From a virus, in the IMG/VR virus record IMGVR_UViG_3300032046_001353, positions 1-30,439 of that record: DNA of 30,439 nt; one strand, 5' to 3'. The notes under the pieces are model-generated. The model saw only the letters and a list, made by a program, of their open reading frames with translations. It had not been told where the DNA came from and made no database searches. The position numbers and the translations under genes were made by a program. Every line of letters begins with the position of its first letter. Within the stretch, counting starts at the first letter, position 1. This document shows positions 9,273 through 30,439 of this stretch, one piece after another.

Positions 9273-9511
9273 AAGACAAGCACGTTCAATGTAGGCTTAG
9301 AAAACCCATTACAGGCGAAGCGTATAAGGAACAGGTTTCCTTTATACCAGAGAAGTATGCGTCTGTAGGAAGGGTATTAAAACTCAGGAATTGTCTTGAG
9401 GAATGGGAAGATGGTTGGGTTGTAGAGGATACATATGTTGTTATGCCTAGCGACCTAGTTGTTCAAAACAGCCATGCGTGGACAAAACAGAGAAAGACAT
9501 CAGATATATGA
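9269..9511 (+). CDS. small hypothetical protein
   Basis: An 80-residue protein, unrecognised. Its ATG overlaps the nuclease stop (ATGA) and its TGA overlaps the ATG of the polymerase gene (ATGA), so it is translationally coupled on both sides. A GGAGG-containing sequence (CAGGAGGAG) directly upstream serves as ribosome-binding site. Short beta-prone segments (AYKEQVSFIPEKYASVGRVL, GWVVEDTYVVM) suggest a small SH3-like or OB-like domain, but there is no diagnostic motif. It lies between a recombination nuclease and the replicative polymerase. Confidence 0.6.
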   Translation: MKDKHVQCRLRKPITGEAYKEQVSFIPEKYASVGRVLKLRNCLEEWEDGWVVEDTYVVMPSDLVVQNSHAWTKQRKTSDI

Positions 9512-11379
9512 ATAGGTATGTTCCCCTTCATGTTCATTCGCACTACTCATTGCTCGACGGCCTAAATAAAAGTCCGCAGATAGCAGATAGAATCGCCGAG
9601 CTTGAATTAGATGGCTGCGCCCTGACTGAACACGGCAACATAACTTCTTCCGTTCAACACATCCAGGCGATGGAAAAGAAGAAGCTTAAGCCGATTGTGG
9701 GCTGTGAACTGTATCTATCAAACCAGTCGTCGTTTGTTAAGGAAGCGTCTAATCGTAAGTTGTTCCATCAGGTGGTTCTAGCCAAGAATAAAGCTGGCTG
9801 GAAAAATCTGATTAAGATGACATCTGAAAGTAACAATCCAGACAGGCTGTACTACCGTCCTCGTCTTGACTACAAGTATTTTGAAGAGAACAAGCCGGAT
9901 GGTATCATAACATTCAGCGGTCACCTTGGTTCTAGACTATCAAACGTCGCACAGAAGGAAGGTGTAGATGCCGCTGTTAAGGAAGCTGAGTATCTAAGAG
10001 AGTTGTTCGGTAAGGACAACTTCTTTATTGAAGTGCAGCTTATCGACTCCTTACTGAATGATGACGCTAGAATTGTGGGCGACCAAATGAGGGAAGTCGC
10101 AAAGAGAACAGGAATACCACCTGTGGCTACTGCCGACTCCCACTATTGTCGTAAAGAGGATGCTGAGGACCAGAGAGTATTGTTGTGTACTAATCTACGT
10201 ACAACACTAGCTAAGATTCAGAAGTCCTTTGATGACGATGAAGAGGTTGGCCTATCTTGCTTCTTCAAATCGAACAACTTCCATATTCCTTCTCATGAGG
10301 AAATGGCACAGTTCCATACCACCGAGGAGCTTGTTAATACTAGGCTTATTTCGGCGATGTGCGAACAGTATAACGTGCTTGGAAAACCCATTCTACCCCC
10401 ATTCGATTGCCCGAACGGCATGAAGCCAGACGAGTATTTGAGGCATCTATGTAGGCAGGGTTGGGTAAAGAAGATTCAGAGTAAGGTTGATAGCAACGAG
10501 CATAATACGTACGCAGAGAGAGTTAAGTATGAACTAGGGGTTCTACAGGGTGCTGACCTATCTAGCTACTTCCTAATCATTCAGGATATTATCCAGTTTG
10601 CTAGGAACAACAGTTGGATGGTTGGCCCAGGTCGTGGTAGTGCCGCCGGTTGCTTAGTATCCTATTTGATTAGCATCACAGCAATCGACCCTATTAAGTA
10701 TGGTCTTATCTTCGAGAGATTCTACAACGCCGGTCGTAATACCGCCGAAAGAGTTTCGTATCCTGATATTGACGTTGACTTGCCAGTTAATAAGAGAGAG
10801 CAAATCATCGACTATATTCGTCAAAAGTATGGTCACGATAAAGTCTCTCAAATGGCTACGTTTCAAACGATGAAGGGTCGCGGTGCATTTAAAGATGTAT
10901 GTCGTGCCCACGGTTCTATCTCATTTGAAGAAATGGGTGAGATTACTCAGCACATTCCAGATGAAGCTAGAATCGCCGATGAACTACAGGAAATGAAAGA
11001 GGAGACAGGTGAATCCTCAATCATTCGTTGGGCTCTAGAAAATAACGCTGATAAGCTAAAACAGTGGTGTTACATAGATTCCAAGGGTAACCTACAAGGA
11101 ACTCTATCAAAGAGATTCGAGCAGGCTATTAGATTAGAAGGTACTAAGACCGCACAGAGCAAACACGCCTCTGGTATAGTTATAGCCCCTTCTGCTCTGA
11201 GTGAAATATGCCCGATGGTTCTTGACAGTAAGAGTAAGGACAAGTCACTTATTGCCGGTATGGAGATGGCAGACTTAGAAGCTCTTGGTATTATCAAGCT
11301 AGATATTCTAGGTCTAAACATGTTAGATAAGGTCATGGGTATTCAACAGATACTTGAGTGTGGCGACATACATGATTAG
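9508..11379 (+). CDS. dnaE: DNA polymerase III alpha, N-terminal half (PHP + palm)
   Basis: The catalytic half of a C-family replicative polymerase, 623 residues from ATG 9508 (ATGA overlap); an in-frame GTG at 9478 is less likely. The PHP domain begins at once (LHVHSHYSLLDG, later DGCALTEHGN and ADSHYC). The palm has VGPGRGSAAG, PDIDVDLP with catalytic-type Asp422 and Asp424, and KLDILGL with Asp599. The protein ends about 24 residues after Asp599, just before the fingers. The rest of alpha is encoded 2.2 kb downstream at 13569. All three catalytic aspartates are here, so the two products must associate to give a working enzyme. No intein residues are visible at the end. Confidence 0.92.
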   Translation: MNRYVPLHVHSHYSLLDGLNKSPQIADRIAELELDGCALTEHGNITSSVQHIQAMEKKKLKPIVGCELYLSNQSSFVKEASNRKLFHQVVLAKNKAGWKNLIKMTSESNNPDRLYYRPRLDYKYFEENKPDGIITFSGHLGSRLSNVAQKEGVDAAVKEAEYLRELFGKDNFFIEVQLIDSLLNDDARIVGDQMREVAKRTGIPPVATADSHYCRKEDAEDQRVLLCTNLRTTLAKIQKSFDDDEEVGLSCFFKSNNFHIPSHEEMAQFHTTEELVNTRLISAMCEQYNVLGKPILPPFDCPNGMKPDEYLRHLCRQGWVKKIQSKVDSNEHNTYAERVKYELGVLQGADLSSYFLIIQDIIQFARNNSWMVGPGRGSAAGCLVSYLISITAIDPIKYGLIFERFYNAGRNTAERVSYPDIDVDLPVNKREQIIDYIRQKYGHDKVSQMATFQTMKGRGAFKDVCRAHGSISFEEMGEITQHIPDEARIADELQEMKEETGESSIIRWALENNADKLKQWCYIDSKGNLQGTLSKRFEQAIRLEGTKTAQSKHASGIVIAPSALSEICPMVLDSKSKDKSLIAGMEMADLEALGIIKLDILGLNMLDKVMGIQQILECGDIHD

Positions 11380-12919: not shown

Positions 12920-13572
12920 TGAATTTCAAAACCATCGTTGTTTTTGATACTGAAACCACTGGTGTAAATCCAGAAGAGTGTAGTGCGGTTCAGCTAGCTG
13001 CTATAGCTATTGACCCAAGAAACCTAACAATCATTCCTGGGTCAGAGCTTAATTTGTTCATGCGTCCAGACCCGATTACGATTAACCAGTCAACCCTTGA
13101 GTGGCACGCAAGAAGACTTAAGATGGAACCAGAACAGGTTCTTGATATGTGGTCTAAGTATCCAGACCCAAGGGTTATATGGCCTGAATTCTTGAAGTAT
13201 CTAAGGGTACATCACACAAAGCAAGATAGACAGACTATGCACAGTGCGCCCATTCGTGCTGGTTGTAACATCGAAAAGTTTGATATGCCAATCGTAAGTA
13301 GGTATCACGAAAAGTTTGGTGACGGCAAGGCTCTATTTTCTCCAAGAGATAAGATAGACTTGTTGGATGTGTTCTTCATGTGGTTTGAGAATAGCGCTGA
13401 TATAACAAGCTACGCTATGGACAACATGAGAGATTTCTTTGGTATGTCGAAAGACAACGCCCACGATGCTCTACAAGACGTTAAGGACTCAGCGGAAATG
13501 ATAATCAGATTCATGAAGCTACACAGGAAGACTGCGGAAAAGGTAACATTTAAAGGGGCGTTCTCAAAGTGA
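12919..13572 (+). CDS. dnaQ: DnaQ-like 3'-5' exonuclease (DEDDh)
   Basis: A predicted proofreading exonuclease, the counterpart of the epsilon subunit. It has 217 residues. The motifs are ExoI FDTETTG (Asp10, Glu12), ExoII NIEKFD (Asp122) and ExoIII AHDALQDV (His182, Asp187), so the DEDDh set is complete. The gene ends in a GTGA overlap with the C-terminal half of polymerase III alpha, which suggests coupled production with its polymerase. I see no evident clamp-binding peptide at the C-terminus (TFKGAFSK). An RNase T-like role is possible, but the location favours proofreading. Confidence 0.87.
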   Translation: MNFKTIVVFDTETTGVNPEECSAVQLAAIAIDPRNLTIIPGSELNLFMRPDPITINQSTLEWHARRLKMEPEQVLDMWSKYPDPRVIWPEFLKYLRVHHTKQDRQTMHSAPIRAGCNIEKFDMPIVSRYHEKFGDGKALFSPRDKIDLLDVFFMWFENSADITSYAMDNMRDFFGMSKDNAHDALQDVKDSAEMIIRFMKLHRKTAEKVTFKGAFSK

Positions 13573-15272
13573 AGACTTTAAACTATTCGTGTGGTTGCTC
13601 GTTTGATGTTTTGAATGAAAACGAGACTATGACTAGAATTGCGTTTGACCCTCAGGCTATTCTTGAGAGCGAACACACCTGTCAAAAAACTTGGGACTAT
13701 ATCAGCAGCGGTAGAACTAAAGGGGTGTTCCAGTTGGAAAGCCCATTAGGTCGCTCGTTGTCTAAGAAGCTAGCCCCACAAAACATTGAACATCTTTCTG
13801 CATTGATGGCAATCATGAGGCCGGGAACAATGGAGTCAATGATTGGCAACAAGTCAGTTACACAACACTACATAGATAGAAAGCATGGTAGAGAACAAGT
13901 TGAATATTATCATCCGTCTCTTGAACCTGCTCTTAGAGGAACGTATGGATTGTTAGTATATCAAGAGCAAGCTATGCAAATAGTTAAGGATATTGCTGGT
14001 TTCAATCTAATGGAAGCCGATACTCTCCGTAAAGCTATTGGTAAAAAGAAGCCAGAAGAAATGGCTAAGGTTAAGACTATGTTCCTTATTAAGAGTAAAG
14101 AACTTGGTATTGTTACCGAGGAAGAGGCCCAAGAGATATTTGGTTGGATTGAGAAGTCTCAAAGATACTCCTTCAATAAGAGCCATAGCGTCTCGTATGC
14201 TTTTAACGGATACTTATCCGCCTACTGTAAGGCCCACTTCCAAAGGCCGTTCTTCACATCTTACCTATACAACTCAAAAGAAAAGGCTAAGCAAAGCTCG
14301 GAAGTTAATGAGTTGGTAAACGATGCTAGAACCTGTAACGTGGTAATCTGCGTGCCAGACTTTAGAAGAATCATTACTGCTTCCACGATAGAGAACCTTA
14401 ATCCCGCTATGCACTTTATGCTTAGAGAGAAAGTTATCTATGCTGGGTTCAGCGATATTCTTGGTATCGGCGAGGCCGCTATAGACAAGCTGCTTAAGTT
14501 GATACCAGGGGTTGAGACGCTTTTGGGCAAGCCATATACAGACTGGACTTGGTTAGAGTTCTTACTTTTCTGCTCTACGAAAATGACAATGCCCGTCGTA
14601 ACAGCGATGGTGGAAGCTGGCTGTTTTGATTATACCGGGAAGACTAGAACAGAGCTATTGTATAACTACAACGCTTTGAAGAAGCTTACCGATAAAGAAA
14701 CAGAGTACATTAAGAAGATGTATGTAGCATTTGCCAACGACATAACCGAAACTACTAGCTTATCTATCCTGCTCAAGCAAATGGTTCAAGAAGGCACGGG
14801 CAGAGGAAAGGGTATATCTAACAAGAATAGGTTGACCTTGGTGGGCGACATTGTAACAACACTGGAAAACCCACCCATTAGTCTTGCAGATTCGCCAGAT
14901 TGGATTGCCGGTATTGAACAGTCGTTACTTGGTATTTCTCTTACCTGTACAAAGGTAGACGGTAGGGATACTAGTGCCGCCAACTGTACGTGTAGGGAGT
15001 TTAGAGAAGGGGCGACCTTCAATGGTTACTCTATTATTGCCGCTCAGATTGTAAATATCAACGAGATTAAGACAAAGAACGGTAAAGACCCAGGCCAGAA
15101 GATGGCATTTATTACAATATCGGATACTACAGGTTCACTTGATAATGTAGTAGCATTTCCAGAGACATGGAAAGAATGTAAAGGATTGTTGGTAAGTGGT
15201 AACATTGTGTTAGTGGGAGGTGAAAAGGGTAAGGATAACAGCTTAATAGTGAAAAAGGTATGGCAAATTTAG
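13569..15272 (+). CDS. dnaE: DNA polymerase III alpha, C-terminal half (fingers to OB fold)
   Basis: The second half of the C-family polymerase, 567 residues, starting at GTG 13569 (GTGA overlap). After a Cys-containing leader (SCGCSF and Cys38) comes the fingers core: KGVFQLES, ALMAIMRPGTMES, YGLLVYQEQAMQI, LRKAIGKKKPEEM and YSFNKSHSVSYAF. A helix-hairpin-helix (FSDILGIGEAAIDKLL) follows, then an OB fold at the C-terminus (GQKMAFITISDTTGSLDNVVAFP). The protein ends with the OB fold, so the tau-binding tail of the E. coli protein is missing, and no clear clamp-binding motif is seen. It continues the homology where the N-terminal half stops. The promoter of ssb begins at its stop. Confidence 0.92.
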   Translation: MKTLNYSCGCSFDVLNENETMTRIAFDPQAILESEHTCQKTWDYISSGRTKGVFQLESPLGRSLSKKLAPQNIEHLSALMAIMRPGTMESMIGNKSVTQHYIDRKHGREQVEYYHPSLEPALRGTYGLLVYQEQAMQIVKDIAGFNLMEADTLRKAIGKKKPEEMAKVKTMFLIKSKELGIVTEEEAQEIFGWIEKSQRYSFNKSHSVSYAFNGYLSAYCKAHFQRPFFTSYLYNSKEKAKQSSEVNELVNDARTCNVVICVPDFRRIITASTIENLNPAMHFMLREKVIYAGFSDILGIGEAAIDKLLKLIPGVETLLGKPYTDWTWLEFLLFCSTKMTMPVVTAMVEAGCFDYTGKTRTELLYNYNALKKLTDKETEYIKKMYVAFANDITETTSLSILLKQMVQEGTGRGKGISNKNRLTLVGDIVTTLENPPISLADSPDWIAGIEQSLLGISLTCTKVDGRDTSAANCTCREFREGATFNGYSIIAAQIVNINEIKTKNGKDPGQKMAFITISDTTGSLDNVVAFPETWKECKGLLVSGNIVLVGGEKGKDNSLIVKKVWQI

Positions 15273-15780: not shown

Positions 15781-16260
15781 ATGACTGTCAATAATAACGA
15801 AATAGAAACCAGGCTCATATTGCAAAATATGGGCCTGGTTATTTCTATAGCTAACAACTTTCGCCCTACATCTAAGCAAGAACTAGAAGAGTATGTTCAA
15901 GCTGGTAGGATAGGGTTATTAGAAGCTATTCGTAGTTATGATAATAGTAAAGCTGCACTGTCTACATGGGCATATCAGCATGTTAAATGGGAAATAATGA
16001 GATACATAGATAAGAATAAGGGCAACCTTGATTCTCGTCTGTCTGACATTAAAATACCTATAGTAGCTCCCGAAAAGAGTGATTTCTCAGAATACCTTCC
16101 AGACTATCTATCTAGCGAGGAGGTCGAGATAATAATGCTCAGAAGGGCTGGCTACACCCTAAAACAAATAGGGGAAATGCTAAGTCTCAATACGTATGCC
16201 ATCGGCAAAACGATAAAATCCGCAGTAGAAAAAATCAGGATAGCAAACAAAGATGACTAA
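15781..16260 (+). CDS. small sigma70-family RNA polymerase sigma factor
   Basis: Directs RNA polymerase to phage promoters. It has 159 residues. Region 2 spans about 8-75 (LILQNMGLVISIANNF, YVQAGRIGLLEAIRSYDNSKAALSTWAYQHVKWEIMRYI in segments), and region 4 is a C-terminal helix-turn-helix (RRAGYTLKQIGEMLSLNTYAIGKTI in segments). Regions 1.1 and 3 are absent or minimal, as in small phage and ECF-like sigmas. The ATG directly follows the ssb stop and has no clear ribosome-binding site of its own, so coupling to ssb is likely. A long hairpin with a GNRA loop covers codons 9-20. Phage sigma factors usually switch on later genes. Confidence 0.85.
   Translation: MTVNNNEIETRLILQNMGLVISIANNFRPTSKQELEEYVQAGRIGLLEAIRSYDNSKAALSTWAYQHVKWEIMRYIDKNKGNLDSRLSDIKIPIVAPEKSDFSEYLPDYLSSEEVEIIMLRRAGYTLKQIGEMLSLNTYAIGKTIKSAVEKIRIANKDD
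15807..15840 (+). promoter_or_regulatory. strong RNA hairpin with GCAA tetraloop inside the sigma gene
   Basis: Bases 15807-15821 pair with 15826-15840 over 15 pairs including one G-U, closing on a GCAA (GNRA) loop. It starts 27 bases into the sigma gene and covers the in-frame ATG at 15829. The downstream sequence is only weakly T-rich (TATTTCT), so it may act as an attenuator, an RNA-stability element or a brake on ribosomes, rather than a classical terminator. Confidence 0.6.
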
Positions 16261-17938
16261 GAAAAGAAGAATACTAATGGTAAGCGAAGCTAGCTATACC
16301 CTTAGTGGCTATGGAATCTATTCACAACAAATACTGTCTAGACTACATAAGAGCGGCAAGTATCACGTTGCTGAGTTTGCTAGTTATGCTGCCGTAGAAG
16401 ACCCAAGGGATAAGCAACCTTGGAGAGTTTATCCTAACGGCCTATCTGCGCAAGGTGGTAATGACCCTCGCATCAAACAGCTTAATTCTGCTCAGGTAAA
16501 CCAGTTTGGTGCTTGGAGATTTGAGCAGGTTCTATTAGATTTCAAACCTGATATTGTGTTCGATATTCGTGACCCTTGGATGTTCACATATCAGAACCTA
16601 TCTCCTCTTAGAAGGTTCTTTAACTGGGCTGTAATGCCAACAGTTGACTCTATGCCACAACAAGACGAGTGGATGCAACACTTTGCTGATGCAGATGGTG
16701 TTTTCACGTATAGCGACTGGGGCCTAGATATTCTTAAGAATCAGGGTGGTGGCAAGATAAAGCTTATTAGTTCAGCCCCGCCAGCTATCAACCTAAATGA
16801 GTTCAAGCCAATCCTTAATACCGCAGAGCATAAAAGGAAGTTCTTTGGTAGGGACGACATTAATGTCATTGGCACAGTTATGCGTAATCAGCGCAGAAAG
16901 CTGTATCCAGACCTATTAGTTGCCTTCTCTAAGTTTCTAGAACTATGTAAGGAAAATGGTAGGGACGACCTAGCAGCTAAAACATATCTATACTTCCATA
17001 CATCATATCCAGAAGTTGCTGGTTGTTGGAACATTCCAAGACTATTGAAAGAAACAGGACTTGCCAGTAAGGTGTTCTTCACCTACATCTGTAAGAACTG
17101 CGGTCATGTATTCGCTTCAAACTTCCAAGATGCCAGAACAGTATGTACAAGGTGTCAACACGCCGCCGCTGTTCTTCCTAGTGTTAGCTATGGTCTATCA
17201 ACCCCTCAGCTAAACGATGTGTATAACCTATTCGATGCTTATGTGCAATATGCGGTATGTGAAGGATTTGGTATGCCACAGGTTGAAGCTGCCGGTGCGG
17301 GTGTTCCTGTATTCTCAACAGACTATAGCGCTATGACAGACGTAGTTCGTAAGCTAAACGGAACGCCAATTAAGGTAGCCAGGATGTTTAGGTCACCAGA
17401 AGAAGATGCTTGGAAGGCCCTACCTGATAATGACGATTGTGCAGATAAGCTATTTAAGTTCTTCTCTCAGTCTGTATCGGCCAGAAAGAGAAAGGGTATG
17501 GAGGCCAGGAAGGCTGTCGAACAACATTATACATGGGATAAGACATATAAATTATGGGAAAGCTACTTTGATACAGTAGAGCTTACTGGTCTTCAAGGTA
17601 AATGGGATGCTCCTCCACAATTCTTACGTCCTAATGCTAATCCACAAGATGCGCCAACAGATGTTCCAAACGAAGACTATGTTGATTGGTGTCTAGCTAA
17701 TCTATATGGTAGTAGCGAGCATGTTAATACGTTGATGTCTATGGATATGGTTAGGGCTCTAAACTATGAACTAGCTGTACAGACCGGCGCTGCTCCTGTA
17801 GCTTATAGTAGACAGCACGTAGTAGACAAAATTCAAAGTATGGTAGTAAACCATAATCAGTGTGAAGAAGTCAGGTGTGGGTTTGCCCAGGTTCCGCCGC
17901 AAGATTGGATTGAATATGCTAATAGGAGGCCAGTATGA
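16253..17938 (+). CDS. GT4-type glycosyltransferase with inserted zinc ribbon
   Basis: A GT-B glycosyltransferase, 561 residues, using a nucleotide-sugar donor; acceptor unknown. The N-terminal Rossmann half starts RILMVSEASYTLSGYGIYSQQ, and the C-terminal half carries VCEGFGMPQVEAAGAGVPV (about 337-355), the family-4 donor-binding signature with its Glu pair. A four-cysteine zinc ribbon (CKNC at 280-283, CTRC at 298-301) is inserted in the C-terminal half between a strand and the PQLNDVYNLFDAYV helix, which is unusual for GT4. The last 130 residues are extra and unassigned. It heads the glycan cluster and overlaps the sigma gene by eight bases and the next GT by four. Confidence 0.85.
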   Translation: MTKKRRILMVSEASYTLSGYGIYSQQILSRLHKSGKYHVAEFASYAAVEDPRDKQPWRVYPNGLSAQGGNDPRIKQLNSAQVNQFGAWRFEQVLLDFKPDIVFDIRDPWMFTYQNLSPLRRFFNWAVMPTVDSMPQQDEWMQHFADADGVFTYSDWGLDILKNQGGGKIKLISSAPPAINLNEFKPILNTAEHKRKFFGRDDINVIGTVMRNQRRKLYPDLLVAFSKFLELCKENGRDDLAAKTYLYFHTSYPEVAGCWNIPRLLKETGLASKVFFTYICKNCGHVFASNFQDARTVCTRCQHAAAVLPSVSYGLSTPQLNDVYNLFDAYVQYAVCEGFGMPQVEAAGAGVPVFSTDYSAMTDVVRKLNGTPIKVARMFRSPEEDAWKALPDNDDCADKLFKFFSQSVSARKRKGMEARKAVEQHYTWDKTYKLWESYFDTVELTGLQGKWDAPPQFLRPNANPQDAPTDVPNEDYVDWCLANLYGSSEHVNTLMSMDMVRALNYELAVQTGAAPVAYSRQHVVDKIQSMVVNHNQCEEVRCGFAQVPPQDWIEYANRRPV

Positions 17939-19050
17939 AAATACTCTACGTAGGACCATATAGACAAAATGACGGTTGGGGTCTGGCCTCTAGAGATTTA
18001 GCTATGGCTCTATCTAAGAGTGTTCACGAAGTAGCCGCGCGTCCACTATATATGACAAGCAGCAACATAACTAGAACTATACCAGAAGAAGTAAAGAAGC
18101 TGGAAGAAAATTCGTTTCCAGACTATGACGTTGTTATTCAGCATACATTTCCGGTACTGTTTGACTACAATGGTAAGTTCAATAAAAACGTAGGCTCCTT
18201 CTTCTCTGAGACAAACCATCTAGAGTACACTCCGTGGCCTAGACACTGTAATCTTATGGATGAGATTTGGGTAACATCAGAAGCAGAAAGACAACACCTT
18301 AAAACTAGCTTAGTTACTAAGCCAATCAAAAAGGTTAATATGCCTATTGATGTTAGTAAGTTTGAAAAAACCTATCCGAAGTTTAAACTTCCAACCGAAG
18401 GTAAGACGTTTAACTTCTACTTTATTGGAGAGTGGATAGAGAGAAAGAATATACCGGCGCTATTGCTAGCGTTCCATCTTGAGTTTGGTAGACAAGAACC
18501 AGTAAACCTAGTGTTGAAAACTGGTATTCAAGGTCTTGATGCTAATAACTCTAGACAGCGTATAGAGCAAGATATTATGTCTCTTAAGCAGTCGTTTGGT
18601 ATCTATAATCAAATAGAAGCGTATAAGCCAGAAATGCTTATTACAGACTATTTGCCAGACGATATGCTATATGGTCTACACGCCGCATGTGACTGTCTTG
18701 TTATGCCGTCTCGCGGAGAAGCTTGGTGCCGCCCAGCTATTGATGCTCTTGGATTTGGAAAAACACCGATAGTAACAGATGGTACGGGTATGAATGAGTT
18801 TGTCAACAACGACAACGGATGGTTAGTTAGCTCTACAGAGTCTCCTGTGTTGTGTCTAGAGAGGCGTGTGGAATACCTAAACAAAGCCCGTGAGACTTGG
18901 AACAACATAGAAATTATCGCCCTACGTAAAGCTATGAGGGAAGCCTATGAGAATAAGAACGAGCGTAAAGTAAAAGCGGCCCAGGGCGTGCAAGATGCTT
19001 ACAACTATTCCTACGACAAGATAGCGGAACAAATCAATGAATCCTGTTAG
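17935..19050 (+). CDS. GT4-type glycosyltransferase
   Basis: A 371-residue GT-B glycosyltransferase. The N-terminus is MKILYVGPYRQNDGWGLASRD; the C-terminal half has FNFYFIGEWIERKNIPALLLAF, the usual strand-turn preceding the donor site, and CLVMPSRGEAWCRPAIDALGFGKTPIV, a divergent EX7E signature followed by TDGTGMNEFV. It overlaps the first GT by four bases and the next by 14, so the three are probably co-translated. Donor and acceptor sugars are not predictable. Role: building a glycan on virion protein, DNA or a host surface, inferred from the cluster. Confidence 0.85.
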   Translation: MKILYVGPYRQNDGWGLASRDLAMALSKSVHEVAARPLYMTSSNITRTIPEEVKKLEENSFPDYDVVIQHTFPVLFDYNGKFNKNVGSFFSETNHLEYTPWPRHCNLMDEIWVTSEAERQHLKTSLVTKPIKKVNMPIDVSKFEKTYPKFKLPTEGKTFNFYFIGEWIERKNIPALLLAFHLEFGRQEPVNLVLKTGIQGLDANNSRQRIEQDIMSLKQSFGIYNQIEAYKPEMLITDYLPDDMLYGLHAACDCLVMPSRGEAWCRPAIDALGFGKTPIVTDGTGMNEFVNNDNGWLVSSTESPVLCLERRVEYLNKARETWNNIEIIALRKAMREAYENKNERKVKAAQGVQDAYNYSYDKIAEQINESC

Positions 19051-20008
19051 AAACATAATCCAAAAAGCTATCCGTAAAAGTGGAGAGCCATACAACATCC
19101 TAATGCCTGGATTTGACGGGTTCTTTGAGAATATGGTTAGTAGGACTGGTAACAATGTATATGTGCTTCCTGCAAATAGTAGGTACGAATGGCAGATTGG
19201 TCTTCCACCTAAAAACAGAGAATGTATCGTTTTAAGAGATATGGAGAATGTTCCAATCGACCTTGCTATAGATTTTGTTCTATGTAATGATAGGACTATT
19301 CAGTATGATATGTGTATTAAGATGGCGCACGCAATGCACATCCCGCTTATTATGTTTGAACACTTTGACTCGATAACTAGGATTAAGCCGGACCAGCTTG
19401 GTTTAATAGCTAGAGCCCAACCATACGACCTACATCTATCTGCTTCAAAACTTATAGCTAAAAGCTGGAACATTGAAGACTCTACCGTTATTGGATATGG
19501 TATACACGAATATCCAACAATAACAGAGAAGGATGAGGATTTGGTTCTAATGGTTGGTGAGTACGGTGATACTGACCTACAAATAGTTGGTGCCCTAGTT
19601 AATGCTATTCCTAATCTTAGAATCATCGGAAACAACAAGGGTATGACAGAGAACATTAGGAATCAATATGAAATAGATGACCTAATCAAGAAGGCTAGTA
19701 TATTCATCAACTTCTCAACAGAAGGAAGAATAAAACCACAGCTACTACAGGCTATGGCAAACAGGTGCGCAATTGTAAGTAACAACCTTCCTATTCTCGG
19801 CGAAATCTTAAACAAAGACAACTCGATACTATGTACGTCTGTTGACCAGTTCACAAGAGGGGTTGCAAAACTTAATGCCGATAGTGCGTTTAGAACTAAG
19901 TTAGCCGAAAAAGGAAGGCTTGCTTCAGAGTATCTTAATATAGAAACATTTTCATCCAAGCTTAACGAAGCATTAGATAAACTATCAACAAAGGTATATA
20001 CGAGGTAA
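19037..20008 (+). CDS. divergent GT-B glycosyltransferase
   Basis: A 323-residue protein resembling a family-4 GT with a reduced N-terminal half. Visible elements are NILMPGFDGFFENMVSR, IPLIMFEHFDSITRI, DLHLSASKLIAKSWNI in the middle, LVLMVGEYGDTD and IFINFSTEGRIKPQLLQAMANRCAIVSNNLPILGEIL in segments, where the Glu and the QAMA helix stand for the donor-binding signature. The match is weaker than for the previous two genes, so activity is less certain. The start overlaps upstream by 14 bases; two bases separate its stop from the next gene. Confidence 0.72.
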   Translation: MNPVRNIIQKAIRKSGEPYNILMPGFDGFFENMVSRTGNNVYVLPANSRYEWQIGLPPKNRECIVLRDMENVPIDLAIDFVLCNDRTIQYDMCIKMAHAMHIPLIMFEHFDSITRIKPDQLGLIARAQPYDLHLSASKLIAKSWNIEDSTVIGYGIHEYPTITEKDEDLVLMVGEYGDTDLQIVGALVNAIPNLRIIGNNKGMTENIRNQYEIDDLIKKASIFINFSTEGRIKPQLLQAMANRCAIVSNNLPILGEILNKDNSILCTSVDQFTRGVAKLNADSAFRTKLAEKGRLASEYLNIETFSSKLNEALDKLSTKVYTR

Positions 20009-20010
20009 TA

Positions 20011-20439
20011 ATGAGAGTTTTTATTAAAGCTACAGAACAACATGATAGTGACGTATCTGATGTTTGTTGCATGTTGGCTGAGCTAGAAGATAAGGTTGGT
20101 CCTGCAACAGCTACACACATAGTGTGTGAAAGTGCCCTAGATAATGAGGTAGATAGAACTGCCGGTCTACAAAAAATTCTAAGTAGACTTCGTTATGGTG
20201 GTAAACTTGTTATTACTGGTATAGACATTGAAGAAATATCTAGAGAGTTTACAGTAAGAACCATTAACGAACAACAGGCTCAATCTCTATTATATGGAGG
20301 TAGACGTTCAGCTTCAACTATTGGCCTTGTGGTTCAAGAGCTTATAAACAATGGTCTAACAATAGTAAACTCTAGACTAAAAGATTTTCATTACTACGTT
20401 CTAGCGGAGAGAAATGTTAAACCCAAGAACAATATGTAG
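20011..20439 (+). CDS. truncated methyltransferase-like protein
   Basis: A 142-residue protein resembling the second half of a class I SAM-dependent methyltransferase: HIVCESALDNE as the post-motif strand, LQKILSRLRYGGKLVITGID as the LxPGG turn, then LYGGRRSASTIGLVVQELINNGL and HYYVLAERN as the final strands. The N-terminal glycine-rich SAM loop is missing, so it may be inactive, act as a partner, or bind ligand differently. A GAGGTAAT ribosome-binding site lies at the end of the upstream GT. Sugar O-methylation would fit the cluster, but this is inference. Confidence 0.6.
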   Translation: MRVFIKATEQHDSDVSDVCCMLAELEDKVGPATATHIVCESALDNEVDRTAGLQKILSRLRYGGKLVITGIDIEEISREFTVRTINEQQAQSLLYGGRRSASTIGLVVQELINNGLTIVNSRLKDFHYYVLAERNVKPKNNM

Positions 20440-21199
20440 AGACTGTATCTTCGCTAAATACGAAGGCAATACTCAAATAGACTGCTCCCTAAACAAACTA
20501 GAGCAACTTGCATCTGTCGGCGCTAATATCCTTGAGGTAATAGATGAGACTGAAAAAGAGTTCTATGTTATAGATGGTATATTCTGTATGTGGTGTAGAA
20601 ATCCAGAATGGGCTAAATCCCATAAGACTTCTGAATGGCTAAGCGACATAGAGAAGGAAATGAGGATTCTTTATCAAGTTATTATATGGGCGAACGACAA
20701 TATAGATGACCTTAGAAAGACTGTTGAGAGTGCCGTTAATCAAACGGTTCCGCCAAAGCACATAACAGTAATTCGTCCTCCGCGTTGCAAGTTACAGCCG
20801 CCTAATATAATATCCGTATTAAACGAAGTCTGTGTTCTTGAAGACGGTACTCCGATACAATGGAGAAACCAAAACTGTATTGATAATATAGAAGATACAA
20901 GCTTGACAGTTGATGACCTGCTTGAGTTTGTTGGGCTTCCATATTATGGTATATTCAATGCCGGCTACGAAATACACCCTAGGCTATTTGAGGTTCTAGG
21001 AAACAAGATAAACAACGAAATGTTCAAGTTTGCCGTTATAGAACCTGATAAGGATGGGAATGGATACATAGCCTCAACATCAATACACAAGTTCTATGTT
21101 GGAAATGTAGAGAAACCACTACTAGAGAAAATAAGAGACGACGAATGTTACCAAATGATATATCCGATAGAGAAGCTGTTGCATTCTTGCCAAGAGTAA
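20414..21199 (+). CDS. Cys-cluster protein with GT2-like domain
   Basis: A 261-residue protein in two parts. Residues 1-65 contain Cys8, Cys11, Cys24, Cys58 and Cys61 (ICRDCIF, DCSLNKL, FCMWCRNPEW), a plausible metal or iron-sulfur site. From residue 85 a GT2-like fold begins (LYQVIIWANDNIDDLRKTVESAVNQTV in segments), but the DxD motif expected in active GT2 enzymes is not obvious. The ATG follows GGAGAG and overlaps the methyltransferase-like gene by 26 bases. A non-catalytic or divergent GT is the best guess; the Cys module is unrecognised. Confidence 0.55.
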   Translation: MLNPRTICRDCIFAKYEGNTQIDCSLNKLEQLASVGANILEVIDETEKEFYVIDGIFCMWCRNPEWAKSHKTSEWLSDIEKEMRILYQVIIWANDNIDDLRKTVESAVNQTVPPKHITVIRPPRCKLQPPNIISVLNEVCVLEDGTPIQWRNQNCIDNIEDTSLTVDDLLEFVGLPYYGIFNAGYEIHPRLFEVLGNKINNEMFKFAVIEPDKDGNGYIASTSIHKFYVGNVEKPLLEKIRDDECYQMIYPIEKLLHSCQE

Positions 21200-21762
21200 C
21201 TATTCTGGTAGCAAGTGCAAACGAAGCGATAGTAAAAACGGCGTTTGACCAAGACTATGCAAAGAAGCAAGTAATTTCTTTACCTAGCTCATTAGATGAT
21301 TTGATTGTACCAAAAACAGTAAGTAGGTTCTATAATGAATCTATTGCTCTAAGTAAGCATCTTACTGATATATACTTCTTTCTTAATGATAGTGCTTGGT
21401 TTTCAGACAATGAAGGGGTATCGCGCGTTGTAGAGAAGTTCCTATTAGAAGATATGAACTATGCTGTTATCTACACAGACTCTTTTAGAGTAGAACAAGG
21501 ATATTTGTCTAATGAGTACCTACCCTCGTTTACCCCGAATCTTTTTGCAGGTAATCAGCTAGTCAACAATCCTATTGCTGTGCAGGCGGCGGCTTTAAAT
21601 GAGAGCCCATTTAACGAAGGAATAGATACGCTGTGCTTCTTTGACATAATGAGAAAGACAGCTAGAGTAACTATGCTTTGCCATCTACCAGAACCTATCT
21701 TCACGATTAAAAGAGAGGCATTTGACATAAACAAAGAGATGACAATCCTTAATAATGAATAG
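21145..21762 (+). CDS. divergent GT2-like protein
   Basis: A 205-residue protein with the general shape of a short GT-A fold: RVTILVASANEAIVKTAF, then YFFLNDSAWFSD where GT2 enzymes carry the acidic metal site, and NYAVIYTDSFRV later. The motif is degenerate (NDSAW rather than DxD). The start is uncertain: ATG 21145 overlaps the upstream gene by 55 bases, whereas in-frame TTG 21187 would begin directly at the first strand. Overlaps the nucleotidyltransferase gene by eight bases. It may pair with the preceding GT2-like protein. Confidence 0.55.
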   Translation: MLPNDISDREAVAFLPRVTILVASANEAIVKTAFDQDYAKKQVISLPSSLDDLIVPKTVSRFYNESIALSKHLTDIYFFLNDSAWFSDNEGVSRVVEKFLLEDMNYAVIYTDSFRVEQGYLSNEYLPSFTPNLFAGNQLVNNPIAVQAAALNESPFNEGIDTLCFFDIMRKTARVTMLCHLPEPIFTIKREAFDINKEMTILNNE

Positions 21763-22477
21763 AGCTGTTAGAAACGTAAATCCAGTTAAACCTGGAAGAA
21801 AATCCAAGATTAGCGTAATACTGCTATCAGCCGGTGAGGCGAGTAGGATGAAGTCTCACGGCCCAAGGTCACTAATAAAAGTGGCAGACGATACTAATCT
21901 AATTAAGTATCAATCAGATACTATAGTCTCAGCAATACCAAACAATGAGATTATTTTAGTATGTGGTTGTGAAGCAGACCGCGTTATGAATCATGCGCCA
22001 GCCAGTATCATATGCGTAGAGAACGAAAGGTTCGACTCAACGAATATTGTAAGAAGCATGGCAATTGGTCTTAGGGCCGCTACATCTGACAAGATTCTAT
22101 TTATATATGGCGACCTCATTTTCAATCACGACACTCTTAAAAATGCTAAGTTTGAAGAGTCATCTGTCTTTATAGATAAGGAAGACTTCTTTGATAAGAG
22201 TGGAGTCGGATGTACGATTAATGAGAAAAACAATGTAGAACACATGCTTTATGGACTTCCTAATCTATGGGCTCAGATGGTATTCTTAACTGGAAGAGAA
22301 CTCTCTATCTTTAAGAACATAGTCTGGAACAGAGAGAAAGAGAAGCTATTTGGGTTTGAGGTACTCAACGAGCTTATTGATAGGCGAGGCACGTTAAAGG
22401 CCCAGTCTCCCAAGAACATGAAGGTAGCGGATATAGACTGTACTAAGGACTTACTCAACATTAAGAAGATACTATGA
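21755..22477 (+). CDS. sugar-phosphate nucleotidyltransferase-like protein
   Basis: Predicted to activate a sugar phosphate with NTP, making donor for the glycosyltransferases. It has 240 residues. The nucleotide loop is VILLSAGEASRMKSHGPRSL (21-40), the usual GxxxRMxxxxPKxL pattern with Arg in place of the second Lys, followed by IKVADDTNLIKYQ and FIYGDLIFN with the metal-binding Asp. A DIDC near the end resembles the WxDIDTxxD motif of the family. MobA-like or sugar-1-phosphate transferases are both possible; context favours a sugar. Overlaps the next gene by four bases (ATGA). Confidence 0.75.
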   Translation: MNRAVRNVNPVKPGRKSKISVILLSAGEASRMKSHGPRSLIKVADDTNLIKYQSDTIVSAIPNNEIILVCGCEADRVMNHAPASIICVENERFDSTNIVRSMAIGLRAATSDKILFIYGDLIFNHDTLKNAKFEESSVFIDKEDFFDKSGVGCTINEKNNVEHMLYGLPNLWAQMVFLTGRELSIFKNIVWNREKEKLFGFEVLNELIDRRGTLKAQSPKNMKVADIDCTKDLLNIKKIL

Positions 22478-26183: not shown

Positions 26184-26591
26184 TTAAGCCTTACGAACAA
26201 TCGAAACTATTAAGTCGTTTTCCCCTCCATCCTTCATAACGCCTACATAAATATGAACTGGAACCTGGGCACCGCACTTATCCGTAGCTACAGTGACAAT
26301 ACTCTCGTTGACCTTTGATTCTATATCTGTGCAGTCTAAGATATTGCATATGTTTTTACCAAGCAAATCTTCTGGATAATAACCCAGCATCCTATATACT
26401 GAAGGATTAACAAAACGAATCAATCCATCTTTACCGGACACAAATACCGTGTCTGTTAAAGCATTTAGGATAAGATACATTTCTCTCTTATGGGCGTTCG
26501 TTTCAGCAACATCTAGCTTATCAAGATGTTCGGTTACCTGTCTTAACTTAGCTAAGGATGTAGGTTCTGATGTTGTTAGCAATGAGCCCAT
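26184..26591 (-). CDS. stand-alone PAS-domain protein
   Basis: A 135-residue protein. After an N-terminal helix (about 10-40) a single PAS domain fills the rest: YLILNALTDTVFVSGKDGLIRFVN, then PSVYRMLGYYPEDLLGKNI as the conserved helix-turn, and VPVHIYVGVMKDGG as the final strands. No kinase, cyclase, GGDEF or DNA-binding output domain is present. The LOV cysteine motif is not visible, so light sensing is not indicated. It has the strongest ribosome-binding site in the window (AGGAGG at 26598-26603, six bases before ATG). Role inferred: binding a ligand or a host signalling partner. Confidence 0.8.
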   Translation of the reverse strand: MGSLLTTSEPTSLAKLRQVTEHLDKLDVAETNAHKREMYLILNALTDTVFVSGKDGLIRFVNPSVYRMLGYYPEDLLGKNICNILDCTDIESKVNESIVTVATDKCGAQVPVHIYVGVMKDGGENDLIVSIVRKA

Positions 26592-26683: not shown

Positions 26684-27421
26684 TTACTCACTCTCTAATT
26701 TCCCCAAAAACCCTATCGTTCTTGGATTTAGAGAAGGATTAATAGTACCTATTACTCTTCTATCCTTATAGACCTCATCCGCCCTATCATACCATGTCTC
26801 ATCCTCTGGATTCTTCATAGTCCACTGTCCATGCGCCGCCCCTGTGTGCCAACAGTATACAAATGGAATCTGGCCCACATCCTTCCACTCCCCTATACTT
26901 TTAGCTGTACGCTGCAATATATCTATAAACTGTAGGTCGAAGTCAGCCCTCTTAGTTAGAGGCCAGCCGCCCACCCTCTCAATCAACTCCTTACGAAAAC
27001 CTAATGTGGAATGGAATCTACCACCGGAGCCTTCTTCTTTAAGAGTTTGGTCTGGGCCGCAATCGGTCATTACACGCTCTGGCTTCGACAGTTCGTGCAG
27101 CTTTAAAGTTTCAGCGTGTTGTGAGACGTAGTTTTTTAAATAGATGTCGTCGTCCTCCCAAACCAAATAAGCGTCACATTCCTTCTCTGAGATTTTCGCA
27201 ATATCGAGCATGGCGTTGTACTTAATCGGCAACGACGGTAGACGATGAGCAGAAGGTATTATTACCCAATTAGGCCCTTCTTGATAATTGAAGTTACCAC
27301 CATCATCTAAGATGATTAGGAACCTTTTGTCGGCGGGATAGTCTTGTCTTTCCCACATAGCTATACTATTAGCCAGTAAGTCGGGGTGCCTGAATGTTGG
27401 GCACAGCGCTATAATATTCAT
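26684..27421 (-). CDS. GT2 family glycosyltransferase
   Basis: A 245-residue GT-A glycosyltransferase. The start is MNIIALCPTFRHPDLLANSI, with RFLIILDDGGNF as the second strand and AYLVWEDDDIYL (Asp90-Asp92) as the DxD metal site. Later GGWPLTKRADFDLQF holds the acidic catalytic-base region. Donor and acceptor unknown. An AAGGAA ribosome-binding site lies just upstream in the eight-base gap after the previous gene. It is the third gene of the leftward operon read from the promoter near 30064. Confidence 0.82.
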   Translation of the reverse strand: MNIIALCPTFRHPDLLANSIAMWERQDYPADKRFLIILDDGGNFNYQEGPNWVIIPSAHRLPSLPIKYNAMLDIAKISEKECDAYLVWEDDDIYLKNYVSQHAETLKLHELSKPERVMTDCGPDQTLKEEGSGGRFHSTLGFRKELIERVGGWPLTKRADFDLQFIDILQRTAKSIGEWKDVGQIPFVYCWHTGAAHGQWTMKNPEDETWYDRADEVYKDRRVIGTINPSLNPRTIGFLGKLESE

Positions 27422-27429
27422 TACGTTCC

Positions 27430-28032
27430 TTAGTTGTGTGTGAATAAATGTCCATCGACCTTCCTGAAGTTGTCCTTACCATATTTTTTCATAACCTCGT
27501 CTATAAATACCCAGTCTGCCCAATACTCATCAGACTTCCATCCAATCTCACACGCAACATCTTTTCTAAACATAAGCGCCGCTATATCAATAGCAGAACA
27601 CGCTAATCTATTAGTAAATATCCCATATGAATGGTGGTGGGTACTATTAAACTCAGCGTATGTGGCTACCACCTTCTTGTCTGAAAACGGCTTACATAGT
27701 CTTTCTAAGTAAACTGGATTATGATAGTTGTCCGCGTTTGTAATTACAATCAGGTCAATATCAGTACAGGGTTTTATATCCTTTAGCCACTGTCGGCGTA
27801 ATGGGTGGCCCCAACTATTTAACCTTTTCTCTGTTGCGTAACAATGAACCCTTGGGTCTGGTGTTTGAAACGCATGTTGAATAGCTAAATTATTAGAGTC
27901 TTCCGGCCCATCGTGTATTACGTTAAGCTCCCAGTTCTGGTGTTTTTGAGCAAGCATAGAACCAATGATTACGGGATAGTAGCGATATATCGGTGCCATC
28001 ACCGCAATCTTTGGATTATACGTACTCACCAT
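27430..28032 (-). CDS. GT2 family glycosyltransferase (short)
   Basis: A 200-residue GT-A enzyme. N-terminal IAVMAPIYRYYPVIIGSMLAQ, then LNVIHDGPED and LIVITNADNYHNP, where NADN stands at the DxD position. FRKDVACEIGWKSDEYWADWVF gives the later acidic site. It is shorter than typical GT2 proteins but appears complete. ATG 28032 overlaps the fusion gene by 17 bases and has AAAGGA upstream. Probably works with its two neighbours on one glycan. Confidence 0.78.
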   Translation of the reverse strand: MVSTYNPKIAVMAPIYRYYPVIIGSMLAQKHQNWELNVIHDGPEDSNNLAIQHAFQTPDPRVHCYATEKRLNSWGHPLRRQWLKDIKPCTDIDLIVITNADNYHNPVYLERLCKPFSDKKVVATYAEFNSTHHHSYGIFTNRLACSAIDIAALMFRKDVACEIGWKSDEYWADWVFIDEVMKKYGKDNFRKVDGHLFTHN

Positions 28033-30016
28033 TAGCGTCCTTTACCTTGGCCCTTCTAATGGCTTCATCTACCAAGCTTGGAATTGGGTCGCCAACATTA
28101 AGCTTGAATACTAAACCAGTTGTTATTGTCTTTAGAACAATAGCAGCTTTCTCTCTTAGTGTCATCTTCTTTGTTGGTTCCTCGACCTCTCCTGGTTCGC
28201 CTATTGTGGCGATTTCAGTTCCGGCAGCGGCAGCCTGCTCAACCTTATCCTTCCAGCCCCAGCGAACCTGATTATCCCTAATCCACTGAATAATCTGTTC
28301 TCTATTTTCAATACATCCTTCGATGCCCCACTTATCCATCTCGCGGGCCTTGGCCTTACAGTCGCAGGTTGGACTTGATTTTATGCCAAGAGACTCTAGG
28401 ATTGTTTGTAATTCTGTACCTGGGCCACCATTCAACCAGGGCCTTAGCACAACGTCTGGCTTATCTGTAGGAACCTTACATAGAACTGTTAAGCCGTGCT
28501 GCGCAGCAATATGGGCGCACACAGACCATTCTTTGTGTTCTCTCATAAAGTCCTTACACGCAGCACCTATGCCTGGACCACCATCGTCACCCTGCTGTCC
28601 AAATAGGACAGTATCGTGGAGAACAATGAACCTTGTTGTCTTAGGTCCATAAGTTGATAGCTCCCTATAAACATCGGCATATGTGTGCCTCTGGTCAATA
28701 AACAATAGGTCTGTTTCCTCAATAGAAGGAACATCGGCGGACCTTTTTTTCTCTATGGTGATTTGTAGGTCGTCGCCGCGCATACCAACCATCTTCTTTA
28801 CCTCTGGGTTATCGCCCTCGGTATTGTAAGATACAATCTTCTTAACATTTGGTTCAGCTAGGAATGCAACAAGAGACTCCCTTCTTTCTGAGAATTCTGT
28901 TACCCTAGTGATATACTTACATAGAGAGTTCAACTTATCCATGTGTTGATTCAAGTCTCTAGGTATGGATTTAACTGAGTTGAAAACATCTACAATGTTT
29001 TCTTTATTTGTTGTTTGTGGTTCTGTCATAGCAATAGGGTCGCTTAGTAGCGCTTCCCACTCTCCTTCTTTCATTAGGCCACTCTTAACAAAGTGGTCAT
29101 AGACTCTATCTAGTGGAATTCCTAACTCTTGATGTCCTATCACATAGTTACGAACCTTATCCCATCTTCTAAGAGGAAACGCGATTCCCTCTGGGCGACC
29201 AAACCTATGAAGCCACTTCAAGAAGCCAAGACACAAAACTTTGTGGCCCGCGTCCCTGAACTTCTGATGTATATACATTTCCTCGCCCCCAAAGCCACGG
29301 AAATTTTTATTAAATCCGAGCCAAGCGTCTTTGCGGCAAGAAATCAATCCACAACCGTTACCAGGAATCTCAAACTCGTCTGAGTCGAGTAATCCAAGCT
29401 TACGACAACCGTTGTCAATCAATAGTTTTTCGTGGCCTACAAACTGGCCTTTAAATGGAAGCTTAATCTCTGGATTAGATAGAGCGAAACATTCAAGAGT
29501 GTTATCTCCTATATCTCTAACAGAGAAAACAGTACCATCTGGTGATTCCCATGCACTTCCCCATGTACCCCACATCTCCCCTCTCCAGTTATCATCGAAG
29601 TGAGTAGAGATGTTATTTAGGTCATCATAGATTAGCGGCCCATTAATTAGGTCCATACTTTCTGGATTAGCATCATACCATTCCAATAGTCTACCAATTG
29701 TTCCATGTCTAAATAGAACATGGGAATCTATACATAGAACTATTTCTCCAGATGCTTCTTCAAAAACCCTATTCTTTGTATTAGCTGGGCCGACCGCATC
29801 TGTATACTCAATATATCTTGTACCTGCTGTATGATGCTTAAATGCACTAATCATACTTGGCTTTAAAAGCTTACTACCAGCATAGGTTGGGTCATTATCT
29901 ATTACTATTAGCTCTACGTTTTCAAGATTTTCATTTAGACGTAGGCTTTGTAGAGAGAACCAAGCACCATGATAGTCATGATACATTGGCATTCCTATTG
30001 TTAGTTTTGGTCTCAT
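28016..30016 (-). CDS. GT2-methyltransferase fusion protein
   Basis: A 666-residue multidomain enzyme. Residues 1-280 form a GT2/GT27-like domain: LTIGMPMYHDYHGAWFSLQ, LCIDSHVLF with a DxH (Asp97, His99) instead of DxD, FRGFGGEEMYIHQKF (239-253) and KWLHRFGR. Residues about 345-505 resemble a CmcI-like or class I methyltransferase (LLFIDQRHTYADVYREL, then IVLHDT). Residues 551-582 contain CDC, MDKWGIEGC and NREQIIQWIRDN, an unassigned Cys motif, and a helical tail follows. The DxH and GGEE resemble polypeptide GalNAc-transferases, hence possible protein O-glycosylation. The first gene after the strong promoter, with a TAAGG ribosome-binding site. Confidence 0.8.
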   Translation of the reverse strand: MRPKLTIGMPMYHDYHGAWFSLQSLRLNENLENVELIVIDNDPTYAGSKLLKPSMISAFKHHTAGTRYIEYTDAVGPANTKNRVFEEASGEIVLCIDSHVLFRHGTIGRLLEWYDANPESMDLINGPLIYDDLNNISTHFDDNWRGEMWGTWGSAWESPDGTVFSVRDIGDNTLECFALSNPEIKLPFKGQFVGHEKLLIDNGCRKLGLLDSDEFEIPGNGCGLISCRKDAWLGFNKNFRGFGGEEMYIHQKFRDAGHKVLCLGFLKWLHRFGRPEGIAFPLRRWDKVRNYVIGHQELGIPLDRVYDHFVKSGLMKEGEWEALLSDPIAMTEPQTTNKENIVDVFNSVKSIPRDLNQHMDKLNSLCKYITRVTEFSERRESLVAFLAEPNVKKIVSYNTEGDNPEVKKMVGMRGDDLQITIEKKRSADVPSIEETDLLFIDQRHTYADVYRELSTYGPKTTRFIVLHDTVLFGQQGDDGGPGIGAACKDFMREHKEWSVCAHIAAQHGLTVLCKVPTDKPDVVLRPWLNGGPGTELQTILESLGIKSSPTCDCKAKAREMDKWGIEGCIENREQIIQWIRDNQVRWGWKDKVEQAAAAGTEIATIGEPGEVEEPTKKMTLREKAAIVLKTITTGLVFKLNVGDPIPSLVDEAIRRAKVKDANGEYV

Positions 30017-30063
30017 TTTTCTTACCTTATTTTCTCTTTCCGTTCAAGAAATTCCTTAACACT

Positions 30064-30092
30064 ATTATATCCTAATCATATCAGTATGCCAA
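30064..30092 (-). promoter_or_regulatory. near-consensus sigma70 promoter of the leftward glycosyltransferase operon
   Basis: TTGGCA (30092-30087), 17 bases, TATAAT (30069-30064) on the minus strand. Transcription would start near 30057, giving a leader of about 40 bases before ATG 30016. The -35 lies two bases beyond the stop of the upstream cysteine-rich gene. This is the best promoter in the window. Confidence 0.75.
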
Positions 30093-30094
30093 GG

Positions 30095-30439
30095 TTATGG
30101 CGCTGGTGTTGTAGTTGTTGGTGTTGAGCGGCAACCTAAGTATGTACCAATATATATTGACGCATTGCACGGGTCATTAATTTGAGAATCAGTGTATGGA
30201 CTAGAGTTACAATAACAAGCCCCACACGCTGAACCAAGACAGTCTGCGTTCTGGTATTGTACCGTATTGCTTTCGTCACAAACTAATGTACATCCGAAGC
30301 TTACGCCATCGCACGCTGCTGTATATGCTGCTGGATTACACGTTGTAGTTGTCGGTGGGGTTGTTGTTGGGTCACCGCCTGTACATGCAGAGATGCACTC
30401 TGCTTCAGTATTATATGCTGTATCACCATCACAAGATGT
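30095..30439 (-). CDS. cysteine-rich protein with mucin-like Thr/Pro linkers (3' end, partial)
   Basis: A minus-strand frame open from the right edge to TAA 30097-30095, 114 codons without a stop and with no start inside the window. It contains 13 Cys. A motif repeats: CDGDTAYNTEAECISAC and CDESNTVQYQNADCLGSAC, of the form CD..T.Y....(A/E)C...C, so the protein is probably built of tandem disulfide modules. Linkers are Thr/Pro-rich (DPTTTPPTTTT and the tail STPTTTTPAP). Such architecture suits an extracellular or virion adhesin or fibre protein and is a typical acceptor for O-glycosylation. It lies upstream of the GT2-methyltransferase fusion. Confidence 0.7.
   Translation of the reverse strand, partial: TSCDGDTAYNTEAECISACTGGDPTTTPPTTTTCNPAAYTAACDGVSFGCTLVCDESNTVQYQNADCLGSACGACYCNSSPYTDSQINDPCNASIYIGTYLGCRSTPTTTTPAP

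Follow-up and report, generated by a model that had tools for sequence, protein, structure and literature searches.

A GT27-like glycosyltransferase and its threonine-rich neighbour: a predicted O-glycosylation cassette in uncultured tailed phages

Introduction

The right end of the virus record IMGVR_UViG_3300032046_001353 (IMG/VR) encodes a glycosyltransferase (GT) of 666 amino acids (aa) directly downstream of a protein with Thr/Pro-rich linkers between Cys-rich modules. This arrangement raises the question whether the phage O-glycosylates its own protein. The window analysed is the entire record of 30,439 bases. A first-pass annotation of the sequence had proposed such a modification, carried out by an enzyme resembling the polypeptide GalNAc-transferases (family GT27), the initiators of mucin-type O-glycosylation in eukaryotes. 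The proposal is supported by the predicted fold, by a pairing with Thr-rich genes far above that of controls and by all eight informative loci of a reverse search. It is predicted, with a probability of roughly 0.8, that the 666-aa enzyme O-glycosylates the adjacent Thr-rich protein.

Virion glycosylation by phage-encoded GTs is already known from the mycobacteriophages Che8, Corndog and Myrna (Freeman et al. 2023, as cited in PMC12363180 and PMC12619734). As far as these two citing papers describe the mycobacteriophage systems, they share with the present cassette a phage-encoded GT and a structural protein as acceptor, here a predicted one. The acceptors described there are capsid and tail-tube C-termini, whereas here the acceptor would be a Thr-rich protein encoded at a tail-tip position, the enzyme has a GT27-like fold and the two genes form an adjacent pair. 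The predicted cassette is a distinct and widespread variant. Reports on phage GT27-like enzymes or poly-Thr phage proteins were not found in the open literature, a scope that excludes subscription papers and preprints.

The gene pair at the right end of the window

The pair and its main features, all on the minus strand, are as follows.

30095..30439, minus: C-terminal fragment (114 aa) of a Cys/Thr-rich tail-module protein, the presumed acceptor; open at the record end
30064..30092, minus: sigma-70-like promoter TTGGCA-17-TATAAT before the glycosyltransferase gene; 11 of 12 matches
28016..30016, minus: GT27-like glycosyltransferase (666 aa) carrying a methyltransferase-like domain at its C-terminus (Pfam, structure model, Foldseek)
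29120..30016, minus: glycosyltransferase domain, residues 1-299
29720..29728, minus: codons of D97-S98-H99 (D-x-H metal motif); no exception at D97 or H99 among 109 relatives
29279..29290, minus: codons of G243-G244-E245-E246; 99-100% conserved
29207..29209, minus: codon of H270, candidate third metal ligand; 99% conserved

The linkers of the fragment read TTTPPTTTT and TPTTTTPAP and the fragment contains 13 Cys residues, in agreement with the first-pass description. Because the window is the whole record, it is the record end that truncates the gene. In the enzyme, DSH at residues 97-99 and GFGGEEMYIH at 241-250 were found as had been stated, and the GT2 model PF00535 matches with 41.5 bits (curated cut-off 23.3). 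The promoter that had been placed directly before the GT gene is the best-scoring site of the region. A scan of promoter sites as such gave no excess (11 sites vs 9.0 in shuffled sequence); the call is supported by conservation in the relative L003, not by the site count. In L003 both hexamers are unchanged and differences are confined to the spacer, while the adjacent coding sequence has diverged.

Resemblance of the enzyme to polypeptide GalNAc-transferases

The GT domain was modelled with AlphaFold2 from 110 sequences, with a mean predicted local distance difference test (pLDDT) value of 95.8 and a predicted template modelling score (pTM) of 0.93; an earlier model from 5 sequences (pLDDT 66.9) was discarded in its favour. 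In a Foldseek search against 350,542 PDB chains, all of the 50 best matches listed are polypeptide GalNAc-transferases, from human, mouse, Drosophila and Toxoplasma (E 3.5e-11 to 7.8e-9). This is the outcome that had been predicted for a structural comparison of residues 1-290 with GT27.

At the sequence level a single-sequence PDB search of the enzyme returned a generic GT2 match and nothing else. With the full profile the N-terminal half resembles many GT2 enzymes, and only GT27 chains match over both halves (E 0.04-0.3). Among 177,635 PDB sequences, GalNAc-T7 and GalNAc-T10 are the only matches at E<10 to a profile built from the C-terminal 111 residues (weak, E 0.085-0.2), and GalNAc-T7 is the sole match of a longer C-terminal profile. 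The alignments of this half place GGEE on GGEN/GGEQ and the conserved His, H270, on the His of the G-H-I-Y motif. Although the E-values are weak singly, these matches carry weight because they are specific and the structure agrees with them.

The metal site of GALNT1 is formed by Asp209, His211 and His344 (PMC4202792). The corresponding D-x-H and distal His are conserved to 99-100% in the family; variation at D97, H99 and W268 and in the FGGEE motif is practically absent from 109 non-redundant relatives. Features common to the enzyme and GT27 are the GT-A fold, D-x-H plus a distal His and, for the GGE part of the WGGEN-type motif, its spacing in the alignments; the residue that follows is Glu instead of Asn or Gln.

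A profile of five relatives recovered 402 family members from viral contigs and a further 96 from contigs of bacterial genomes, and 80 relatives of each kind were retained. The family was unmatched in 50,697 phage records (tblastn with three different members as query). The nearest named viral protein, and the best viral structural match (E 4e-21), is A0A6J7WYC1 of an uncultured Caudovirales phage (30% identity); it belongs to the same family and is annotated merely as 'Glyco_tranf_GTA_type', with no function or partner given. Three further structural neighbours in BFVD, A0A6J5NK11, A0A6J5MV95 and A0A6J5R1Z4, also from uncultured Caudovirales, are annotated 'Glycosyltransferase, GlcNAc', so that phages may hold several families of peptide-type glycosyltransferases.

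Linkage to threonine-rich genes

An open reading frame (ORF) was counted as Thr-rich if some 40-residue stretch contains at least 35% Thr. Such an ORF lies near the family enzyme in 47 of 59 distinct viral loci, compared to 1 of 49 control loci around unrelated phage GT4 genes (Fisher 4e-18). Counted by ORF, 61 of 764 in the family loci are Thr-rich vs 1 of 879 in the controls (Fisher 5e-20), and 33 of these 61 are the gene directly upstream of the enzyme. With relatedness limited to one representative from each of 24 clusters at 60% identity, the Thr-rich gene is found at position -1 in 13 of 24 (2.2 expected on shuffling, p<=5e-5) and at most three genes upstream in 18 of 23.

The strongest argument for the tract as acceptor comes from the partners themselves. 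When the Thr tracts of 58 partner proteins were masked, the remaining sequences fell into 34 unrelated groups; the Thr tract is therefore what the partners have in common. In the reverse direction, a conserved Cys module of the window clade retrieved ten loci, and the family GT is present downstream in 8 of the 8 with useful downstream DNA.

The tracts also show a preferred spacing of Thr and Pro. Proline occupies position +3 in 134 of 181 three-residue spacers between Thr runs of GT-linked proteins, vs 49 of 138 in generic poly-Thr proteins, and T-xxP-T occurs in 34 of 43 GT-linked partners vs 26 of 96 generic ones (Fisher 1e-8). GalNAc-T1 and many isoenzymes possess a pocket for Pro at acceptor position +3 (PMC10901373), which matches this preference; in their Thr/Pro-rich tracts with T-x-x-P the partners thus resemble GT27 acceptors.

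One branch of the family has short enzymes, and the Thr-rich proteins of this branch share the C-terminus C-x(n)-C-N-x-L-x-[F/Y]-COOH.

L033-L084 (e.g. L034:270-962, L066:7456-7983 and L079:4453-7983, all plus): tagged, otherwise unrelated Thr-rich proteins beside a short-form enzyme

Among 8,614 ORFs 33 terminate in this tag, all of them Thr-rich, on the strand of the GT and mostly adjacent to it, vs 1 of 6,941 in controls; a second or third tagged protein is encoded in L034, L042, L045 and L084. When DNA was searched for the tag by a pattern without Thr codons, ten contigs with a tag-terminated ORF were found. All ten of these ORFs are Thr-rich and the family GT is present in the retrieved DNA of 8 of the 10. 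The CNxLx[F/Y] tag may be a recognition or anchoring signal. The window clade has no tag and tends to end in TTTPAP-like tracts.

The full-length partner

The full cysteine-rich gene, proposed in the first pass as a check, was obtained from the 93%-identical relative IMGVR_UViG_3300031885_000018 (L003/L250), a contig of 53,338 bases. It encodes 1985 aa (L250:4884-10841): about 1300 residues are followed by a C-terminal region in which Thr tracts alternate with Cys-rich modules. Five tracts with 89 Thr, as well as 83 Cys, were counted in the relative L006/L250, which thereby has the composition of a mucin-like domain, i.e. Thr/Ser/Pro-rich tracts between Cys-rich modules. In L250 the partner gene lies one gene past the tail tape-measure gene, which was confirmed by PHROGs, and in L252 the order is terminase, portal and further genes, then tape measure, one gene, the Thr-rich gene and the glycosyltransferase. 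From this order the partner is placed at a tail-tip position; a role as adhesin is plausible. In L009 and L010 there are two adjoining Thr/Cys-rich genes, with an extra gene of 382-386 aa between them and the enzyme.

A window-type pair was also seen by eye in a Pirellulales genome (L086, 1178-14646), in an apparent prophage tail module near an integrase-like gene. Its location in this genome hints at Planctomycetota as hosts of the window clade.

Bacterial relatives

A Thr/Ser/Pro-rich ORF lies within two genes of the enzyme in 23 of 75 bacterial loci. Several of these partners are small and begin with a twin-arginine (Tat)-like sequence, as in Rhodococcus (L155, L161, L165), Bradyrhizobium (L144) and Saprospiraceae (L141). 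Rhodococcus erythropolis NBRC 15567 (L161) and a Bradyrhizobium metagenome-assembled genome (L144) resemble the phage cassette in that a DxH/GGEE enzyme adjoins a small Thr/Ser/Pro-rich protein; they differ in that the partner carries a Tat-like signal and is no tail protein, and the GT is fused to other domains. A cellular O-glycosylation system in culturable Rhodococcus is possible. L101 (upstream ORF) and L148 are also bacterial enzyme relatives beside small Thr/Ser/Pro-rich proteins; by eye, the L148 partner has a PqqD-like N-terminus.

Opposing evidence and alternative explanations

Several results weigh against an O-glycosylation of the Thr-rich protein by a GT27-like enzyme. The structural matches listed have 11-16% identity and TM values of 0.54-0.65 by query length, and the E-values of the profile matches to GT27 are weak (best 0.039 for the full profile, 0.085 for the C-terminal half). 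The residue after GGE is Glu, where GT27 has Asn or Gln, and no Pfam match to a ricin-type lectin domain was found in the 666-aa protein. For the first 1200 residues of the partner there is no PHROG or Pfam family match; as its non-Thr part has no such assignment, its tail location is read from gene order. A Thr-rich neighbour within two genes is lacking from 52 of the 75 bacterial loci. Furthermore, 96 viral proteins in the Thr frame were collected with the generic TTTTTPTTTTTT pattern, and 0 of 96 have a family GT in the flanking stretch examined, with a single weak profile match of 31 bits. The same profile recovers 80 of 80 known loci as positive control, which makes this asymmetry real and no failure of the profile. 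Thr-richness alone accordingly does not imply glycosylation, and the relation is one-way: a Thr-rich partner can be expected from the enzyme, but not the enzyme from Thr-richness.

The same 96 proteins lend themselves to the explanation that the Thr tracts are low-complexity linkers prone to slippage, which came to lie beside the GT gene by chance in mosaic tail modules. This is very unlikely, as the pairing survives permutation over the 24 clusters, only 1 of 879 ORFs around GT4 genes is Thr-rich, T-xxP spacing and C-terminal tag are specific to the GT-linked set, and a pairing is also seen beside bacterial Tat-type secreted proteins. A more serious but still improbable alternative is an enzyme that acts on a host or phage surface saccharide or a lipid carrier, as in serotype conversion or capsule-type modification, with the Thr-rich protein as a co-inherited neighbour from the tail module. 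Most GT2 enzymes act on saccharides or lipids, GT2 enzymes of the teichoic-acid and chondroitin-synthase types are among the matches to the N-terminal half of the profile, and GT4 and nucleotidyltransferase genes form a second set in the phage. Against this stand the 34 unrelated groups of neighbours with Thr tracts alone in common, the near absence of Thr-rich genes from the GT4 control loci and the fact that the best structural matches are peptide-acting enzymes.

A third possibility is a sub-case of glycosylation of the Thr-rich protein: the transfer would proceed by an inverting, GT7-like chemistry or with another sugar in place of GalNAc, such as GlcNAc, Glc or a methylated one. The system would then be mucin-like, but its chemistry would not be of the mucin type. 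Inverting GT7 enzymes carry a carboxylate, their catalytic Asp base, at the position after GGE. With its invariant Glu there, the family may differ from GT27 in stereochemistry; weak Glyco_transf_7C matches in 13 of 110 members, the accessory GTs and the methyltransferase-like domain point in the same direction. However, the 50 PDB matches listed include GT27 but no GT7, and the metal motif is D-x-H rather than D-x-D. The chance of this sub-case is judged a little under even.

O-glycosylation of the adjacent Thr-rich protein remains the best explanation. By fold, metal motif and probable acceptor the enzyme probably works like GT27. It differs from GT27 in identity, in FGGEE instead of WGGEN/Q, in its cytoplasmic prokaryotic or viral context and in the C-terminus, where the lectin domain is often replaced by a methyltransferase-like or Zn-ribbon-like part. 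Because this domain is absent, overall sequence similarity is marginal and the activity is a prediction, the enzyme is not filed as GT27.

Accessory enzymes and further genes of the window

Three further features belong to the presumed cassette.

28382..28954, minus: methyltransferase-like domain, approximately residues 355-545, possibly divergent; PF13578 E 0.0013, under the cut-off; kept in long-form relatives
27430..28032, minus: second GT2 gene, 200 aa; PF00535 E 2.2e-5
26684..27421, minus: third GT2-like gene, 245 aa; homologs downstream of the GT27-like gene in eight other loci

The two additional GT2 genes of the first-pass annotation are both present; the one for 200 aa reaches the Pfam GT2 cut-off, while no Pfam model matched the 245-aa protein. 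A comparison with the family profile identified the window proteins P0003 and P0004 as different GT2s and not members of the GT27-like family. Of the fused methyltransferase that had been proposed, the C-terminal region exists, is kept throughout the long-form branch and matches PF13578 (Methyltransf_24) with 20.1 bits, below the curated cut-off of 26.3. Its S-adenosylmethionine-binding motif I is degenerate (VTEFxxRRES). An active methyltransferase was set aside, since neither score nor motif supports it. By eye, some relatives have a Cys-rich, Zn-ribbon-like C-terminal segment instead.

On the opposite strand a second carbohydrate cluster (16253-22477, plus) contains three GT4-type genes and a MobA-like nucleotidyltransferase; a role in supplying or extending glycans is possible. 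Two separate ORFs (9478-11379 and 13569-15272, plus) together encode DNA polymerase III alpha, the first with PHP and polymerase domain, the second with finger and OB domains; four or five genes lie between them and no intein-like ends were seen by eye. A small protein at 26184-26591 (minus) reads, also by eye, like a PAS sensor domain in a phage genome.

Proposed mechanism and significance

The right end of the window would be part of a phage O-glycosylation cassette whose acceptor is the protein rich in Thr and Cys whose gene closely follows the tail tape-measure region. The GT-A enzyme, of a GT27-like family, is proposed to bind a divalent metal via D97, H99 and H270 and to move the first sugar, perhaps GalNAc, from a nucleotide sugar onto Thr (and Ser) of the Thr tracts. 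This transfer would take place in the host cytoplasm, ahead of virion assembly. Extension or capping of the glycan could then fall to the two GT2-like enzymes encoded next and perhaps to the methyltransferase-like domain, in the latter case possibly by methylation. The product would be a densely glycosylated, mucin-like stalk at the tail tip, which might protect against proteases or binding proteins, stiffen the linkers or serve adhesion. Computation supports the fold, the motifs, the linkage, the promoter and the place in the tail module; the enzymatic activity, the identity of the acceptor, the sugar, the location on the virion and the function are predictions.

Beyond this locus, the evidence tips slightly towards a widespread prokaryotic mucin-type system. 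A cytoplasmic GT27-like family of uncultured tailed phages and some bacteria would recognise Thr tracts on many unrelated proteins, in one branch via the CNxLx[F/Y] tag, and build glycan-coated tail stalks. Such a system would be a prokaryotic counterpart of mucin glycosylation in animals, possibly with shared ancestry, and bears on the origin of mucin-type glycosylation. It provides a set of poly-Thr phage proteins with an explanation that can be tested, and its compact enzymes, of which some come with a terminal tag, could serve to O-glycosylate proteins in bacteria. Documented self-glycosylation of phages concerns a few mycobacteriophages, whereas here an entire family of enzymes seems devoted to Thr-rich tracts; the gene pair points to many phages that coat their own particles with sugars in a mucin-like way.

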